DNA of 48,407 bases from Paracoccaceae bacterium. GTDB lineage: Bacteria > Pseudomonadota > Alphaproteobacteria > Rhodobacterales > Rhodobacteraceae. The translations under genes and the position numbers were made by a program. Within the stretch, counting starts at the first letter, position 1. Every line of letters starts with the position of its first letter. Positions 1,865 to 11,139 of the stretch are shown piece after piece. A model generated the notes under the pieces. That model made no database searches and was not told where the DNA came from. It worked only from the letters and a program-made list of their open reading frames with translations. The DNA lies in NCBI GenBank assembly GCA_024642725.1, contig JAHEAO010000008.1, positions 1 to 48,407 of the forward strand, read 5' to 3'.

Positions 1865-3073
1865 ATGGACGGCAAATTCGACGACGCCATGACTGGCGAA
1901 CAGAAGATCCGGAATTTCAACATCAACTTCGGGCCCCAGCACCCTGCCGCCCACGGCGTGCTGCGTCTGGTGCTGGAACTCGATGGCGAGATCGTTGAGC
2001 GCTGCGATCCGCATATCGGACTCTTGCACCGCGGCACCGAAAAGCTGATGGAAAGCCGCACCTACCTGCAGAACCTGCCCTATTTCGACCGGCTCGACTA
2101 TGTCGCCCCGATGAATCAGGAACATGCTTGGTGCCTTGCCATCGAAAAACTGACGGGCACTGTTATTCCGCGCCGCGCCAGCCTGATCAGGGTGCTGTAT
2201 TCCGAGATTGGCCGCGTGCTGAACCACCTTCTCAACGTGACCACGCAGGCGATGGACGTTGGTGCGCTGACACCTCCGCTTTGGGGTTTCGAGGAACGCG
2301 AAAAGCTGATGATCTTCTACGAACGCGCCTGCGGAGCGCGGCTTCACGCCGCCTATTTCCGGCCCGGCGGCGTGCATCAGGACCTGCCGCCCGAACTGAT
2401 CGACGACATCGACACATGGGCCGATGAATTCCCCGCCCGGCTCGACGACATCGACGGTCTGCTGACCGAAAACCGCATCTTCAAGCAGCGCAATGCCGAT
2501 ATCGGCGTCGTGACCGAGGAAGATATCCAGAACTGGGGCTTTTCCGGCGTCATGGTGCGCGGCTCCGGCCTCGCCTGGGACCTGCGGCGGTCGCAGCCCT
2601 ACGAATGCTACGATGAGTTCGACTTCAAGATCCCGGTCGGCAAGAACGGCGACTGCTATGATCGCTACCTCGTGCGCATGGCCGAGATGCGCGAAAGCGT
2701 GAAGATCATCAAGCAGGCCATTGCGAAGCTGCGCGCCGAACCCGGCGAAGTCATGGCCCGCGGCAAGATCACGCCGCCCTCCCGTGGCGACATGAAGACC
2801 TCGATGGAAGCGCTCATCCATCACTTCAAGCTTTATACCGAGGGCTTCCACGTTCCGGCAGGCGAGGTCTATGCCGCCGTCGAGGCGCCCAAGGGAGAGT
2901 TCGGTGTCTATCTGGTGGCCGATGGCACCAACAAGCCCTACCGCGCCAAGCTGCGCGCCCCGGGGTATCTGCACCTGCAGGCGATGGACTATGTCGCGGG
3001 AGGCCACCAGTTGGCCGATGTCGCGGCGATTATCGGAACGATGGATATTGTGTTCGGCGAGGTGGACCGATGA
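1865..3073 (+). CDS. nuoD: NADH-quinone oxidoreductase subunit D (49 kDa type)
   Basis: NuoD is the 49-kDa subunit of the complex I connecting arm and forms much of the quinone-binding pocket with NuoB. The protein is about 402 residues, normal for alphaproteobacterial NuoD as a separate chain (not fused to NuoC). [15 protein letters not shown] occurs near the N-terminus, followed by [16 protein letters not shown] and [11 protein letters not shown], and it ends in DIVFGEVDR, all family hallmarks. Start is ATG at 1865; a GTG at 1862 directly in front is equally compatible with the AAGG at about 1851. The upstream neighbour is a sulfotransferase, not nuoC, which is unusual. The TGA overlaps the ATG of the next gene (ATGA). 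Confidence 0.96.
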
Positions 3074-3459
3074 AAACGACAGCCCTTTTTCCCGTCATCC
3101 TGCTCTTGGCGGCCTGTTCGACCCCGGTGCCCGACAGCGCCCCGCTGGAGCCGATTGTCGAGGACAATATCTACGACCCGAACGCTGCCGTGATTCAGCC
3201 AGCCGATCCCATCACCTCTGATCCCATCACCTCGGGCCCGATCTCGTCGGCTCCGCTCTCCGACAAGGAACGCCTTGTCGCCGCGATGGAGGCGAACGGT
3301 TGCGCGCTCAACCCAGAAAACTCCGAGCGTATCCTGACAGAGCTTGGCATCCCGCAAGATCGCATGACCGCAATCGGCTCGGAACTGATGCAGGAAGGAC
3401 GTGTCGCTGTTGTTCCGCCCGCTGAATTCCGGTTGATCACCGGGGCCTGCGCTACATGA
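3070..3459 (+). CDS. Small putative lipoprotein within the nuo operon
   Basis: A protein of 129 residues that I do not recognise as a named family. It has a short basic-hydrophobic leader ending in a lipobox, LLAAC, with the cysteine at residue 16, so export and lipidation are likely. A proline/acid-rich linker with a short repeat ([10 protein letters not shown]) leads to a C-terminal part rich in conserved-looking polar residues ([14 protein letters not shown]). The start overlaps the nuoD stop as ATGA and its own stop overlaps the next start the same way, so it is translationally coupled into the complex I operon. Rhodobacter-type nuo operons are known to carry unassigned small frames; this is one. 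Function unknown. Confidence 0.8.
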
Positions 3460-3824
3460 CACTGATCGGGCTCTCTTTGGCCCTTGCCGGTCTTGGCGTG
3501 CTCTGGACGGGCGCGCTTGCCATGCTTTACCTGCGCGACCCCGTGCATGGCATGGCCGTGACCACGCACCATCCCGAACAACTGCCCAAGGTCATGGCCG
3601 ACCGCTACTTCGCGATGGCGTTCCTCGCCTTCGGGGCCGTCAGCTACCGGGATTTTGCTGTCATCGCCTATCTCTTCGTCGTGTTTTCCTTCCTTGGCTT
3701 TGCCGATGCGTGGATATACCACCGCGCCGGCAAACCCTTTGCCCTGCATTTCGCAGCCGGCGTCATGGCGATGATCGTCGCCGTCATCGCCTTGCTGGCC
3801 CTGAACTCTGGAGTCACCGTCTGA
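3456..3824 (+). CDS. Small integral membrane protein within the nuo operon
   Basis: A 122-residue protein with about four hydrophobic stretches: near residues 3-23, 50-65, 66-88 and 97-118. It carries a conserved-looking loop [21 protein letters not shown] after the first segment, written here as two parts: [14 protein letters not shown] and PEQLPKV. It starts in an ATGA overlap with the lipoprotein gene and its stop shares one base with the nuoE start (TGATG), so it is embedded in the operon. I cannot name a family. A role in complex I assembly or in the membrane around it is inference from position only. Confidence 0.78.
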
Positions 3825-4921
3825 TGCTTCGCCGCCTTCATCCCGATCAGCCCGATACGTTTGCCTTCACCAAGGCCAACCAGCTTTGGGCTGAGGCGCA
3901 GATCACCAAGTTCCCCGAAGGCCGTCAGGCCTCGGCTATCATTCCGCTTCTGTGGCGCGCGCAGGAACAGGAAGGCTGGCTGACCCGGCCCGCGATCGAA
4001 CATGTGGCCGACATGCTCGGCATGGCCTATATCCGGGCGCTGGAAGTCGCGACCTTCTACTTCATGTTCCAGCTCCAGCCCGTCGGCTCGGTCGCCCATA
4101 TCCAGATCTGCGGAACCCTGTCCTGCATGATCTGCGGAGCAGAGGACCTGATCGGCGTTTGTCAGGACAAGATTGCCGCCAAGCCGCACCAGCTGTCGCC
4201 CGATGGCAAGTTCAGCTGGGAAGAAGTCGAATGCCTCGGATCCTGCGCCAACGCGCCGATGGCCCAGATCGGCAAGGATTACTACGAGGATCTGACGACA
4301 GAGCGTCTGGCCGAGATCATCGATGAACTGGCCGCAGGCAAGGTGCCCGTGCCCGGACCGCAGAACGGGCGCTATGCTGCGGAACCTCTCGCCGGGCTCA
4401 CCAGCCTGACGAAATACGAAAGCGGTCGCACGCAATATAACGCATCGGTGCAGCTTGCCACCGATATCGGTGACACGGTCAAGCGCATCGACGGAACCGA
4501 AGTTCCGTTGCTGACCCCTTGGCTGGGCAAGTCGAAACCGACATCCAAATCCGCGGCCAAGGCCAAGCCTGCCGCCAAGGCCACGGCCAAGCCCGCTGCA
4601 AAGGCAAAACCGGCATCCAAAGCTGCTGCGGCTGCACCCGCGAAGCAAAAGAAGCCGCGCAGCCTGAAGGCCGCGCGCAAGTCCGGCCCCGACGACCTGA
4701 AACTGATCAAGGGTGTCGGCCCGAAACTGGAACAGCTGCTGCATAGCCTCGGGTTCTTCCACTACGATCAGGTGGCGAAATGGACCGCCGAGGAAGTCGC
4801 ATGGGTCGATGAAAACCTCGAAGGCTTCAAGGGTCGTGTCAGCCGCGACGGATGGGTCGAACAGGCAAAGACCCTTGCCGCGGGTGGCGAGACAGAATTT
4901 TCGAAACGCGCTAAATACTGA
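3824..4921 (+). CDS. nuoE: NADH-quinone oxidoreductase subunit E with C-terminal helix-hairpin-helix extension
   Basis: NuoE carries the N1a [2Fe-2S] cluster in the NADH-oxidising arm. Start is ATG 3824, overlapping the previous stop by one base, giving 365 residues. Cluster ligands are C96 and C101 (CGTLSC) and C137 and C141 (ECLGSC). Canonical NuoE ends near residue 200-240. Here an Ala/Lys/Pro-rich linker of roughly 45 residues follows, then an 86-residue domain starting at about 280 with a helix-hairpin-helix signature ([17 protein letters not shown]). That extension is about 71 percent identical (61 of 86 by hand alignment) to the C-terminus of the next gene product. HhH domains of this kind often bind DNA; what one does on complex I is unknown. 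Confidence 0.93.
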
Positions 4922-4961
4922 GGGACCGACAACGCACTAAAGAAGAACGGGGAGAAGTCTG

Positions 4962-5750
4962 ATGAATTCCGATAACGGATCGAACAAGACCAAGATCTGG
5001 GGCTGGGCCGCTGTCGCCGGCGTGCTGGCCTTTCTTGCGCTGAAGTTCATGGCGTCCTACACCACATTTCCGGCGTTGCTGCTGGCAGTGTTGATCGCCG
5101 TGCTGGTGGCGATCCTGCTATGGATTGGCTTCTACCGTGATCCAGAGGTTGAAAGCCGCGCCTCTGCGCTGTCGCAGCCCGCAGCCAAACCCGCCGCTTC
5201 ACCCGAGGCAAGTCAACCGGCCGCTGCCAAGCCCGCCGCCCTGATGGGCGATGCCGCGGCCAAGGTCGTGTCCGAGAAACCGGCGGAGCCTGCAAAGCCG
5301 GCCGCCAAGAAACCGGCCGCCAAGAAACCGGCCGCCAAGAAAGCCGCAAAACCGGCAGCGAAACCGGCGGCCGCCGCGACACCCAAGGCGGCTGCGACCA
5401 AAGCCGCGAAACCCGCCGCGAAAGCCGCAGCCAAGGCGCCCGCGAAGAAACCAGTCGCTCCCGATGGCAAACCCGAAATGCTGAAAGCCGCCCGTGCGGC
5501 TGGCCCGGATGATCTCAAGCAGATCAAGGGCGTCGGCCCCAAGCTGGAAGCGGAACTGCACAAGATGGGCGTCTTCCATTTCGATCAGGTCGCTGGCTGG
5601 CGTAAACAGGAAGTCGCCTGGATGGATGAAAACCTTGCCGGCGTGCGCAGCCGCGTCAGCCGCGACGGCTGGGTTGCTCAGGCCAAGGTCCTCGCCAAGG
5701 GCGGGGCAACCGAATTCTCCAAGCGTGTCAAGAAAGGCGACGTGTACTGA
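4962..5750 (+). CDS. Membrane-anchored helix-hairpin-helix protein, paralogous to the NuoE tail
   Basis: 262 residues. Two hydrophobic segments near residues 12-30 and 37-57 should anchor it in the membrane. A long linker (about 65-170) consists largely of AAKPA and KKPAA repeats, histone-H1-like in composition. The last ~87 residues form a helix-hairpin-helix domain ([17 protein letters not shown]) nearly the same as the one ending NuoE 40 bases upstream. A strong Shine-Dalgarno (GGGGAGAAG) precedes ATG 4962. It sits between nuoE and nuoF in the same orientation. It could tether complex I peripheral arm parts, or bind nucleic acid at the membrane; both are guesses. The repeated linker codons invite slippage and length variation. 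Confidence 0.85.
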   Translation: MNSDNGSNKTKIWGWAAVAGVLAFLALKFMASYTTFPALLLAVLIAVLVAILLWIGFYRDPEVESRASALSQPAAKPAASPEASQPAAAKPAALMGDAAAKVVSEKPAEPAKPAAKKPAAKKPAAKKAAKPAAKPAAAATPKAAATKAAKPAAKAAAKAPAKKPVAPDGKPEMLKAARAAGPDDLKQIKGVGPKLEAELHKMGVFHFDQVAGWRKQEVAWMDENLAGVRSRVSRDGWVAQAKVLAKGGATEFSKRVKKGDVY

Positions 5751-5760
5751 GGTATGAGAC

Positions 5761-5982
5761 ATGGGTGATCCCGGGAAAGACAGCCAACTGGCACGCAAGG
5801 GCAGGCAGGTCGCGCTCTTCCTTGCCGCTGTAGGTCTTTACTGGATCGGGATCACCTGGTTGGGGGCAAGGCTGGAATGGACGAACCGCAGCCGCGCCTT
5901 TTTCGATTTGATTGCCCTTGCCGGGTTCGGCTGGGCCCTTTGGGCGATTTTTCAGATTTGGCGGCAACGCCGGGAAGACTAG
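5761..5982 (+). CDS. DUF5337-like small membrane protein
   Basis: 73 residues with two hydrophobic segments, near 14-33 ([15 protein letters not shown]) and 43-62 ([14 protein letters not shown]), a basic N-terminus and a charged C-terminus (WRQRRED). The pattern RKGRQVALF...WLG...FDLIALA...W resembles the DUF5337 family that I recall from rhodobacteral genomes, where it lies in the nuo region; this is from memory and not searched. It begins 10 bases after the HhH protein and ends 10 bases before nuoF. Function unknown; its position suggests a small accessory or assembly factor of complex I. Confidence 0.75.
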
Positions 5983-5992
5983 GGAAGCAGAC

Positions 5993-7291
5993 ATGCTGAA
6001 GGACAAGGACCGCATCTTCACGAATATCTACGGGATGCATGATCGCAGCCTTGCCGGGGCGCGCGCGCGCGGCCATTGGGACGGCACCGATGCACTGATC
6101 AAGAAGGGGCGCGACTGGATCGTGAACGAGATGAAGGCCTCGGGTCTGCGCGGGCGCGGCGGCGCGGGCTTCCCCACCGGCCTCAAATGGTCCTTCATGC
6201 CGAAGGAAAGCGATGGTCGCCCGGCCTATCTCGTGGTCAATGCCGACGAATCCGAACCCGGCACCTGCAAGGACCGCGAGATCATGCGCCACGATCCGCA
6301 TACGCTGATCGAAGGCTGTCTGATCGCGTCCTTCGCGATGAACGCCCACGCCTGCTACATCTACATTCGCGGCGAATATATCCGTGAAAAAGAGGCGCTG
6401 CAGGCGGCGATCGACGAATGCTACGACGCCGGGCTTCTGGGCAAGAACGCCGCCAAATCCGGCTGGGATTTCGACCTCTTCCTGCATCACGGGGCCGGGG
6501 CCTATATCTGCGGCGAGGAAACGGCGCTTCTGGAATCGCTCGAAGGCAAGAAGGGCATGCCCCGGATGAAGCCGCCGTTCCCGGCAGGCGCCGGGCTTTA
6601 CGGTTGCCCGACGACGGTGAACAACGTCGAATCCATCGCGGTCGCCCCGACGATCCTGCGGCGCGGTGCGGGTTGGTTCTCGGGCTTCGGCCGCGCCAAC
6701 AACACCGGCACCAAGCTTTTTGCGATCTCGGGGCATGTGAACAATCCCTGCGTCGTCGAAGAGGCGATGTCGATCACCTTCGACGAACTGATCGACAAGC
6801 ACTGTGGCGGCATCCGCGGCGGCTGGGACAACCTCAAGGCGGTGATCCCCGGCGGCTCCTCGGTGCCGCTCCTGCCTGCCGAGGTCATGAAGCAGGATGC
6901 GATCATGGATTTCGACTGGCTGCGCGAACAGCGCTCGGGCCTCGGCACGGCGGCGGTCATCGTGATGGACCAGTCCACCGATATCATCAAGGCGATCTGG
7001 CGGCTGTCCAAGTTCTACAAGCACGAAAGCTGCGGCCAATGCACGCCCTGCCGCGAAGGGACCGGCTGGATGATGCGGGTGATGGATCGCTTGGTGAAGG
7101 GCGATGCGGAACCCGAGGAAATCGACATGCTGCTTGATGTTACCAAACAGGTCGAAGGTCACACGATCTGCGCCCTTGGCGACGCCGCGGCATGGCCCAT
7201 TCAGGGTCTCATCCGCCATTGCCGGGATGAAATCGAGGACCGTATCAAGCACAAGCGCTCCGGCCGCGTCAGCGCCGTGGCGGCGGAGTGA
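5993..7291 (+). CDS. nuoF: NADH-quinone oxidoreductase subunit F (NADH- and FMN-binding)
   Basis: NuoF oxidises NADH with FMN and passes electrons to the N3 [4Fe-4S] cluster. The protein has 432 residues, the usual size. The NADH/FMN glycine-rich region reads [16 protein letters not shown] at about residues 51-66, followed by [16 protein letters not shown]3 ligands are C347, C350 and C353 (CGQCTPC) and C393 ([12 protein letters not shown]). I chose ATG 5993 with AGGGAAG just upstream; a longer frame from 5912 would overlap the previous gene in another frame. The stop at 7289-7291 is followed by a lipoprotein gene. Confidence 0.97.
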
Positions 7292-7296
7292 GCGGG

Positions 7297-7629
7297 ATGA
7301 AACGCCTGACGCCTCTGGTCGCCGCTCTGCTTCTGGCGGGCTGCAACTCGCTGGGCTGGGGCCCGGATGAGGTTGAACGCAGTTTCCCTTACAAGGCAGA
7401 GATCGCGGTGGACGAAAACCAGAGCGATCTGGCGATCAGCGTTGCCGCTCCGCCCGGCGTCACCGTCGATATCGTGCGCGAGGCCGCGCGCTATCAGGTC
7501 ACCCGTCATTGCCTCCAGACCTTCGGAGATTCCGACGCCGACTGGCAGATCGACCCGGCCACCGGCGACTGGGCCTATACCCGAACGCCCGATGCGATGA
7601 TCTTCCGCGCAAGATGTCAGGGGCGCTGA
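7297..7629 (+). CDS. Small putative lipoprotein between nuoF and nuoG
   Basis: 110 residues. The N-terminus MKRLTPLVAALLLAGC is a classic lipoprotein signal with the lipobox cysteine at residue 16. The mature part holds a basic/acid mix, two further cysteines and a short YTRTPDAMIFRARC tail. Start ATG 7297 has GGAG about ten bases upstream in the end of nuoF; a GTG at 7288 overlapping the nuoF stop is an alternative that adds three residues. I do not recognise a family. It is the second of three lipoprotein-like genes interleaved with the nuo genes and is probably exported to the periplasmic side of the membrane. Confidence 0.78.
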   Translation: MKRLTPLVAALLLAGCNSLGWGPDEVERSFPYKAEIAVDENQSDLAISVAAPPGVTVDIVREAARYQVTRHCLQTFGDSDADWQIDPATGDWAYTRTPDAMIFRARCQGR

Positions 7630-7639
7630 CAGGAAACCG

Positions 7640-7738
7640 ATGACGATGCAGTCCCACGCATATCATGTCGCTTCCCGCCGGTCCGGTCTCTTCGCCGCGG
7701 GCGCCCGGCGCATTTGCGCTGCACCGGTGGCGGAGTAA
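7640..7738 (+). CDS. Possible 32-residue microprotein
   Basis: A short frame starting MTMQSHAYHV and ending CAAPVAE, arginine-rich in the middle, with AGGAAA four bases ahead of the ATG and a TAA four bases before the next start codon at 7743. Spacing is what one expects in this tightly packed operon, but the composition is not distinctive and no conservation can be checked here. It may equally be a short untranslated spacer. Confidence 0.28.
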   Translation: MTMQSHAYHVASRRSGLFAAGARRICAAPVAE

Positions 7739-7742
7739 CGGG

Positions 7743-7973
7743 ATGCGGGCGTTTTTCGACGGATTGCTCAGCTTCGTCGCCGCGGTCGCAACCGCGGCCC
7801 TGACGCTGATCCCGGCCTATTATGCCTGGATGTCGATCGACGCGGGCTTTGCGCCGCAATGGGTCTGGATCAACATCTCGGGCCTGTCGCTGGCGGCCGC
7901 GGTGATGATCTTCGTGCTGCTGCGCAAGGCCAAAGACGGCGTGGCACCCCTTCGGGCCCGGAGGCGCAGATGA
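7743..7973 (+). CDS. Small two-helix membrane protein in the nuo operon
   Basis: 76 residues with two hydrophobic segments (about 7-29 and 42-62) separated by a loop with WMSIDAGFAPQWVWI, and a strongly basic tail ending RARRRR, which predicts a cytoplasmic C-terminus. I chose ATG 7743; the longer in-frame start at 7665 adds 26 residues without hydrophobic or conserved character. The stop overlaps the ATG of a doubtful downstream frame. No family recognised. It belongs to the group of small accessory frames between nuoF and nuoG. Confidence 0.72.
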   Translation: MRAFFDGLLSFVAAVATAALTLIPAYYAWMSIDAGFAPQWVWINISGLSLAAAVMIFVLLRKAKDGVAPLRARRRR

Positions 7974-8242
7974 ACATCCACCCGTCACCCGCCGCTTGGG
8001 ACAGCATTGAAACATCCGCGCACGAAACCGTGCTTGGCGTAGCGGCCAATCGGCGTGATACCAGACACTTGCATAAAGATGGACGGAGCCGGAAGGCCCG
8101 GACCATTCGGGCGGGAAACACCGCCACACCGAAGACGGCGCAAGATCGTCTTGACCTGCTGGGCGTGAAAGGGGCGACGTACATGCCCCCATGTCACCTG
8201 CGCGCCAAAGCGCGCAATCAGCGGAGTCAAAACCATGTTTGA
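7970..8242 (+). CDS. Doubtful 90-residue frame before the DUF5333 gene
   Basis: The frame starts MNIHPSPAAWDSIE with a good Shine-Dalgarno (GGAGG five bases ahead) and an ATGA overlap with the previous stop, both signs of a real gene here. Against this, its codons (GTA, AGA, ACA, GGA, TTG, repeated CGG) differ from the strongly biased nuo genes, the product is a featureless basic polypeptide, and it runs 8 bases past the likely start of the next gene. It may be a decayed gene or a transcribed spacer. Two hairpins lie in its 3' part. Confidence 0.25.
   Translation: MNIHPSPAAWDSIETSAHETVLGVAANRRDTRHLHKDGRSRKARTIRAGNTATPKTAQDRLDLLGVKGATYMPPCHLRAKARNQRSQNHV
8181..8216 (+). other. Pair of small perfect hairpins ahead of the DUF5333 gene
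   Basis: ACATG at 8181-8185 pairs with CATGT at 8190-8194 across four C residues, and TGCGCGC at 8199-8205 pairs with GCGCGCA at 8210-8216 across CAAA. They sit 18 bases before the DUF5333 start, in the least gene-like part of the operon. There is no T run, so they are not a terminator. An mRNA stability or processing role between nuoF- and nuoG-proximal messages is conceivable. Confidence 0.4.
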
Positions 8243-8675
8243 ACGCCTTTCCACTGCCATTATGAAACGTGCAACCCTTGCGGCCATCCTTGGCGGCAGC
8301 CTCGTTGCACAAGCCGTCGCGGCGCAAACTCCACCTCCGATCAACGAGGAACAGCACATCAACGACTCGCTGCTTGCCGCCGCAGTCGGTGCCATGATCC
8401 TGCGCGACTGCTCGACGATCTTCCCGCGGTATCTGGTGATCAAGGGTAAGGTCGACGCGCTCGAGGAATATGCGCTCGGGCAGGGCTATACCGAGGAACA
8501 GATCGAAGCTTTCCTCGACGACAAGGACGAACGCAAGCGGATGCGCAAACTGGCGAATACCTATTTGCGCGATCATGGCGTGGTCAAGGACGACCCAGAG
8601 ACGTTTTGCGCGCTCGGGCGTGACGAAATCGCAAAAGGAACGCTGACCGGCGAGATGATCTGGTCATTGAAATAA
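8235..8675 (+). CDS. DUF5333-like exported protein between nuoF and nuoG
   Basis: 146 residues with an N-terminal signal peptide ending near LVAQAVAAQ and a mature acid/basic helical domain with two cysteines (LRDCSTIF and ETFCALG). The pattern AVGAMILRDC, then GYTEEQIEAFLDDKDERKRM, and C-terminal FCALGRDEIAKG fits the DUF5333 family as I remember it from Rhodobacteraceae; not searched. I chose ATG 8235 with CGGAG seven bases ahead; an internal ATG at 8262 would also give a usable signal peptide. The gene ends 48 bases before nuoG. A periplasmic location and a link to complex I are inferred from the signal peptide and position. Confidence 0.75.
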   Translation: MFERLSTAIMKRATLAAILGGSLVAQAVAAQTPPPINEEQHINDSLLAAAVGAMILRDCSTIFPRYLVIKGKVDALEEYALGQGYTEEQIEAFLDDKDERKRMRKLANTYLRDHGVVKDDPETFCALGRDEIAKGTLTGEMIWSLK

Positions 8676-10740: not shown

Positions 10741-11139
10741 GTGAGGACGGGGGCAATGCTGATGGCGCTTTCCACGATGGGACTGACCGGGTGCACCCCC
10801 GCCGACCCGTCGGCGTCCGACGCTGCCTTTTCGCCCGAATATATCGGGATCGAAACGCGTCTGCTCGATGACGACCTCGTCAGTTTTCAGGTCGCCATGA
10901 AGGGCGCGCGCGACCCGGACGACGTCGCGGACTACGCCCGCTGCGCCGCCGCGCAATATGCGCTGATCCGGGGCTTCGGATTTGCGCGCCATGTGCGCAC
11001 AAATGTAGCGAAAGAGGGTGGCATTTGGCGTGCAGATGCGGTTTACACCATCTCGCCAGCCCTGCCGGACGGTCTGCGCACGATTGACGCCGAAGTCATC
11101 GTGCAGGACTGCGAGGCCAAGAGAATACCGACGGTGTGA
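10741..11139 (+). CDS. Small putative lipoprotein between nuoG and nuoH
   Basis: 132 residues if the GTG at 10741 is used, which gives a basic residue at position 2, a hydrophobic stretch and a lipobox-like MGLTGC with cysteine at 18. ATGs at 10756 and 10762 would remove the basic n-region, so I prefer the GTG. The mature part contains [20 protein letters not shown] and, near the end, EVIVQDCEA. No family recognised. It is the third lipoprotein-like gene in the operon, one base behind nuoG and 13 bases ahead of nuoH. Confidence 0.72.

Follow-up and report, generated by a model that had tools for sequence, protein, structure and literature searches.

A protein-O orthologue with a NuoE-like tail, encoded between nuoE and nuoF in a Paracoccaceae bacterium without a detected reaction centre

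NuoE and its membrane-anchored neighbour

The window analysed here is a stretch of 48,407 nucleotides from a Paracoccaceae bacterium (contig JAHEAO010000008.1 of assembly GCA_024642725.1, read on the forward strand), and the features of interest lie among its nuo genes (Table 1). The nuoE gene, at 3824-4921, encodes 365 residues, and its identity, which the initial annotation had proposed from the letters alone, is confirmed by the NCBIfam model NF009040 (613.7 bits against a cut-off of 514). The last 86 residues of NuoE agree with the product of the next gene at 61 positions in the best ungapped register, the next-best register giving 14, so that a hand count of about 61 proves exact; BLASTP of the two tails finds 72% identity at E 2e-41. 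Both tails hang, as had also been noticed, on linkers composed largely of alanine, lysine and proline, and the neighbour has the two predicted membrane helices claimed for it, at residues 7-31 and 35-58 of an AlphaFold2 model (hydropathy was also used). A search of the window's genome at E <= 10 finds the tail in these two copies only. The C-terminal tail of NuoE is a feature already annotated (NCBIfam NF009040/PRK12373), and positions 220-399 of the 400 in NF009040 match the tail of the neighbour as well.

Table 1. Features of the nuoE-nuoF region, in coordinates of the window.
Feature	Coordinates	Strand	Evidence
NuoE core (24 kDa thioredoxin-like [2Fe-2S] subunit), residues 1-235	3824..4528	+	PF01257, E 2.6e-51; aligns to the 239-residue NuoE chain 8qby_E, E 1e-117
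NuoE Ala/Lys/Pro linker, residues 236-276	4529..4651	+	34/41 A+K+P; net charge +12
NuoE tail, probably HhH-type, residues 277-365	4652..4918	+	63/88 identical to neighbour tail; pLDDT 75.4
Protein-O orthologue, 262 aa	4962..5750	+	phmmer against 8yy9_O, E 2.7e-35
O transmembrane hairpin (predicted helices 7-31 and 35-58)	4980..5135	+	without the Cys10/Cys60 pair
O Ala/Lys/Pro linker, residues 61-170	5142..5471	+	83/110 A+K+P; net charge +15
O tail, probably HhH-type, residues 171-262	5472..5747	+	tail match to NuoE; AlphaFold2 model
DUF5337 gene, 73 aa, between O and nuoF	5761..5982	+	PF17272, E 4.1e-25
Presumed nuoF (context)	5993..7291	+	reading frame

Several small frames are scattered among the nuo genes (3070-3459, 3456-3824, 7288-7629, 7665-7973, 8235-8675 and 10741-11139); the first looks lipoprotein-like by eye and the second has a match to DUF4267 below the cut-off. 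Upstream of the nuo genes, two adjoining frames (3-884 and 814-1860), possibly a tandem duplicate, have in common an 11-letter protein motif that we take to be typical of sulfotransferases.

We identify the neighbour, encoded at 4962-5750, as an orthologue of protein-O. Searched against solved structures, it leads to chain O of 8yy9, 8yz2, 9jpb and 9km0 and to chain a of 9wqv, of which 8yy9 is the RC-LH1 of Dinoroseobacter shibae, where protein-O was seen by cryo-EM (PMC12079452). There protein-O is presented as a new photosystem subunit of unknown function, 239 residues long, with residues 8-59 traced and the remainder invisible. Its hairpin is flanked by RC L on one side and by LH1 alpha subunits 11 and 12 on the other, with a Cys10-Cys59 disulfide on the cytoplasmic side, its gene lies between nuoE and nuoF, and the C-terminal domain common to protein-O and NuoE is already reported (PMC12079452). 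A profile that we built from 58 O proteins covers the full length of 8yy9_O (E 1.4e-81), and residues 6-58 of the model of the window's O superpose on residues 8-59 of 8yy9_O with an rmsd of 1.3 Å over 52 residues (Z 7.4) at 15% identity. One genome of the survey described below, G030, encodes an O identical to the D. shibae chain (239/239), and its gene too has nuoE on one side and nuoF on the other. As far as the alignment reaches, this hairpin is also that of the 76-residue 'Protein LRC' in 9lts/9ltv, which are titled D. shibae RC-LH1. The RC M chain in 9wqv is not the D. shibae one (582 versus 767 bits), which means that O also occurs in the RC-LH1 of a second organism.

The initial annotation had worried that an HhH domain on complex I was unexplained. 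The worry was fair, but the pair of domains was already known, with protein-O as its membrane member. It had also proposed that the pair could bridge complex I to the membrane, whereas the only membrane partner of O known by structure is the photosynthetic RC-LH1 (the 8yy9 group, 9lts/9ltv and 9wqv) and not complex I.

The shared tail in the family and beyond

How regularly do the two tails occur together? Our family sample holds 160 genomes, one per genus with the window's included, and the nuoE-nuoF region was retrieved from 148 of the 159 others; the 11 genomes outside the survey comprise three without a NuoE match, seven with the most divergent NuoE and one contig-end fragment. O was sought solely between nuoE and nuoF, so that absence there does not equal absence from the genome. 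G130, in which NuoE and O lie on separate contigs, is counted for O (as a tail fragment) and excluded from the NuoE-tail counts. The initial annotation had made its proposal depend on the gene's being kept beside nuoE, and O is present in 98 of the 149 genomes. Leaving G130 aside, both tails occur in 87 genomes, the NuoE tail alone in 39, the O tail alone in 10 and neither in 12, a co-occurrence slightly above expectation (p 0.0497, kinship ignored). Exactly one tail copy at E <= 1e-5 is found in 28 of the 160 genomes, on NuoE in 18, on O in five and elsewhere in two, the region not having been retrieved in the remaining three.

The pairing inferred at the outset, a duplication yielding a pair that works together, thus holds in part. 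The tails are homologous, one on a peripheral-arm subunit and the other on a two-helix membrane protein, but they need not act jointly, given the 10 genomes with the O tail alone and the 39 with the reverse. A bridge between NuoE and O is nevertheless possible: the two tails might bind each other, tying the peripheral arm to membrane-bound O and, in phototrophs, to RC-LH1. Such a pairing would fit the within-genome identity of NuoE and O tails, which is 0.668, where shuffling gives 0.627 on average and 0.639 at most (87 pairs, 2000 shuffles, kinship ignored). It would also fit the lower scores of O tails where NuoE has no tail (median 129.7 bits, n=10, versus 145.9, n=87; p 0.001, kinship ignored), a difference that persists at p 0.0099 after correction for NuoE-core divergence, and the fact that the window's genome has no other copies, as well as the slight excess of co-occurrence. 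On the other hand, the scores of NuoE tails differ little whether O is present (142.7) or not (139.1; p 0.08), the NuoE tail is the sole detected tail in 18 genomes, and each tail is found without the other, as counted above. Moreover, gene conversion alone could explain the excess of within-genome identity. One clear recent gene conversion is seen in G094 (L140), where the NuoE and O tails share an exact tract of 130 bp, against a median of 15 bp. On balance we regard mutual binding of the tails as doubtful.

Between genomes, tail identity is 0.632 for NuoE-NuoE, 0.640 for O-O and 0.626 for NuoE-O, and values this close would be predicted were the two tails to contact one common partner. The idea that the NuoE and O tails are ancient separate paralogues was rejected, since by identity they do not form separate classes; in a tail tree the NuoE/O label changes 53 times, as against 84-91 in five shuffles, so that separation is partial rather than full.

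The fold of the tail is probably of the HhH type. AlphaFold2, working from small input alignments of 10 and 22 rows, predicts a helical domain with HhH-type helix order and a GVG turn at a mean pLDDT of 75.4. Foldseek with this model gives no match at E <= 0.001. Near the top in VIA-align are the RadA N-terminal domain (3etl), which is the best at Z 8.0 with an rmsd of 2.1 Å over 60 residues, and the AR2 domain of NusA in its SuhB-bound form (6ib8_C; Z 7.1, 2.5 Å over 62 residues). The modelled tail resembles these two domains in its probable HhH-type fold, with about 20% identity and no sequence-level match, and a Z of such size may mean a mere common arrangement. The label HhH given by the initial annotation is probably right in kind, with a predicted fold of moderate confidence, but the Pfam models stay below their gathering cut-offs (HHH_5 on NuoE, 13.4 bits against 27; HHH on O, 15.2 against 24).

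The initial annotation had also suggested a bridge to nucleic acid, and an HhH-type fold invites the proposal that basic linkers and HhH tails act as a tether to DNA or RNA, for complex I as well as for the membrane. In the window both linkers carry a strong positive charge (+12 and +15), 98-100% of NuoE and O tails retain the GxG hairpin, the nearest folds include the N-terminal domains of RadA/Rad51 and DNA polymerase iota, and the tail also appears on ribosomal protein models. However, O linkers elsewhere are mostly acidic (negative in 66 of 97, positive in 28), and the very basic linkers of the window are therefore not the rule. The tails themselves have a median net charge of -1 both in NuoE (n=126) and in O (n=97), and this neutrality argues against general DNA binding, while the complex of NusA AR2 with SuhB shows that such a fold also mediates contacts between proteins. 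We consider a nucleic-acid tether improbable.

The tail is a reused module, found also on ribosomal L21 and on other membrane proteins. The NCBIfam models for L21, S2 and the phasin PhaH (NF008915, NF008916, NF008966, NF045508) have ends that match the tail at E 1e-9 to 5e-22; nothing in their N-terminal portions is related to NuoE or O, and all these matches fall below the whole-protein cut-offs, as expected. At 16 tail columns the same residue occurs in NuoE and O (at least 95%) and in 11 proteins encoded downstream and four L21 tails (at least 75%). Three loci (L180, L183 and L187) show tails where inspection by eye suggests L21 beside L27, and a class-level search gives a tail match in 13 of 144 genomes, including the window's and two of its family. 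No common partner emerges among the genomic neighbours of the other tail carriers.

Other carriers are varied. Three loci (L177:6777-7397, L179:7145-7777 and L176:7444-8046) encode one-helix coiled-coil membrane proteins with a tail ending in GDVY, in L177 and L179 just after a gene for an exported-looking protein. A frame of 1314 residues in G016 (L186:2356-6297) has one N-terminal helix and a long coiled coil, with a tail-like repeat present four times. Downstream of O, 11 of the 149 genomes encode a further tail protein that has no hairpin (e.g. L065:2469-3299). Two such proteins look like phasins by eye, an identification that is tentative at best: in the six scanned, PhaH stays below its cut-off, and the matches cover mostly linker and tail.

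Protein-O with and without a reaction centre

The window's genome is 98.95% complete, and a search with Photo_RC (PF00124) at E <= 0.001 turns up nothing in it; CytoC_RC and PufX are also unmatched. The genome of a congener, G160, likewise lacks a Photo_RC match and has the NuoE tail and O in the same order as the window. Since neither genome shows a reaction-centre match, we do not class O here as an RC-LH1 subunit. Photo_RC is positive in 61 genomes of the family sample. The 149 surveyed comprise 59 phototrophs and 90 non-phototrophs; O occupies the nuoE-nuoF gap in 45 of the former (one as a tail fragment) and 53 of the latter, and is somewhat commoner in phototrophs (p 0.035, kinship ignored). 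It is missing from that gap in 14 of the phototrophs and 37 of the non-phototrophs, from which it follows that O is not essential to complex I. The split between PufX-type and PufC-type phototrophs was considered as a driver of O presence and rejected, with O in 23 of 31 and 20 of 25 genomes respectively (p 0.75).

On a proxy tree of NuoE and NuoF with 147 tips, phototrophy changes 35 times, compared with a shuffled mean of 45; for O the count is again 35, equal to the lowest among its shuffles, whose mean is 43. Neither trait, then, tracks the tree closely. With phototrophy changing so often, some of the non-phototrophs may have lost their reaction centre recently. In one clade of three non-phototrophic genera (support 0.956), all three have kept O.

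Hairpins from the two groups of genomes form one family. When the 53 non-phototroph hairpins are made into a profile, it recovers 43 of 45 phototroph queries (two of which, from G030 and from the PDB, are one protein), among them D. shibae O at E 8e-13, and passes none of 44 reversed hairpins. By a hydropathy cut-off, three of 97 O hairpins have one helix and one has three. Per-position entropies of phototroph and non-phototroph hairpins correlate at 0.82 over 86 columns. Hairpin likeness is higher within PufC-type phototrophs (0.318) than within non-phototrophs (0.259), which speaks against a purely general role, and Phe at column 42 is more frequent in phototrophs (0.77, versus 0.30 or less).

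Cysteines at alignment columns 10 and 60 are all-or-none, with 62 proteins having both, 35 neither and none a single one (n=97), and 48 of the 62 have a third Cys at column 14; these cysteines may have a redox or metal role. The window's O is among those without the pair, which marks the type member but does not define the family. Of the non-phototrophs 38 of 53 have both cysteines, and of the phototrophs 24 of 44; given this frequency in non-phototrophs, the D. shibae disulfide is no photosystem trait. Among phototrophs the pair is commoner in the PufC type (16 of 19) than in the PufX type (8 of 23). What is new here, as far as the open-licence literature searched shows, is that O with its hairpin, and often with its cysteine pair, is kept in many genera without a reaction centre. 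That protein-O is not tied to photosynthesis is not reported in that literature.

Between the window's O and that of G160, a single pair of congeners that are both non-phototrophs, the hairpin is 75% identical with dN/dS 0.24, the tail 82% with dN/dS 0.15, and the linker 38% with dN/dS saturated. O is thus under purifying selection between two non-phototroph congeners.

Could O nonetheless be solely an RC-LH1 subunit, its copies in non-phototrophs being relics of lost photosynthesis? All three O-type chain sequences in the PDB come from entries with a reaction centre, and O is slightly commoner in phototrophs, as given above with kinship ignored. Relics would, however, be hard to square with intact frames carrying hairpin and tail in 53 non-phototroph genera, with a cysteine pair at least as frequent there as in phototrophs, with purifying selection on the congener pair, or with the three-genus clade in which O is universal, and we judge this explanation very unlikely. 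Equally remote is a passive tail, spread by duplication and gene conversion and with no specific partner, which would suit the 130-bp tract in G094, the lack of separate NuoE and O classes and the loss of tails from NuoE or O in many genera, but is at odds with the low tail dN/dS beside a saturated linker and with the 16 columns held in common across NuoE, O, the 11 downstream proteins and the four L21 tails.

A respiratory role for O, and known systems

We propose that O serves the respiratory chain as an accessory membrane protein and is also bound by RC-LH1 in some phototrophs, a reading to which we would give a probability of roughly 0.45. Its usual job is probably respiratory; we place the main job in respiration because O is kept in so many genera without a reaction centre. 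In this scheme O would be made together with complex I, and its hairpin would sit in the membrane and pack against a larger membrane complex. The partner of the hairpin would most likely be complex I itself, as the operon position and the shared tail suggest, or else a complex assembled with it. A long linker, probably disordered (pLDDT mostly under 50 over residues 61-170), would hold out the HhH-type tail on what is presumably the cytoplasmic side in the window's species, where this tail and that of NuoE may share one cytoplasmic partner. Some phototrophs offer the hairpin a further site, the gap between RC and LH1, the position shown by structure for D. shibae (PMC12079452).

In a more ambitious version O would partner complex I generally and would have been co-opted by RC-LH1, the matched HhH tails of NuoE and O coupling quinone reduction to NADH metabolism and the cysteine pair being redox-sensitive; we think this unlikely. 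If it were true, the photosynthetic core would be held beside complex I in phototrophs, and another quinone-linked complex would be held there in non-phototrophs. Quinone reduction, whether driven by light or respiratory, would then be physically coupled to NADH metabolism, and the cysteine pair at the cytoplasmic ends of the hairpin, often with the third Cys, would provide redox sensitivity.

Returning to O as a respiratory accessory protein, over half of the surveyed non-phototroph genera keep it in the complex I operon, and it is in respiration that its basic job should be sought. More generally, O may help to show whether Rhodobacteraceae-like bacteria keep their photosynthetic and respiratory complexes in one physical arrangement.

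Among known systems the closest is D. shibae protein-O itself (ABV93056.1; 8yy9 chain O), which the window's O resembles in the place of its gene between nuoE and nuoF, in its N-terminal two-helix hairpin and long linker, and in the same C-terminal tail ending in GDVY. It differs in that its host is without a reaction centre and in lacking the Cys10/Cys60 pair, and also in its strongly basic linker and a hairpin only 15% identical to that of 8yy9_O. Protein-U/Y of Rhodobacter sphaeroides RC-LH1 is likewise a hairpin at a similar place between RC and LH1 (PMC12079452), but according to that paper its sequence is quite distinct from that of protein-O, and D. shibae is without a homologue. For NuoE the comparison is simpler: the window's protein differs from the NuoE of NF009040/PRK12373, a model of length 400, by ordinary sequence variation alone.
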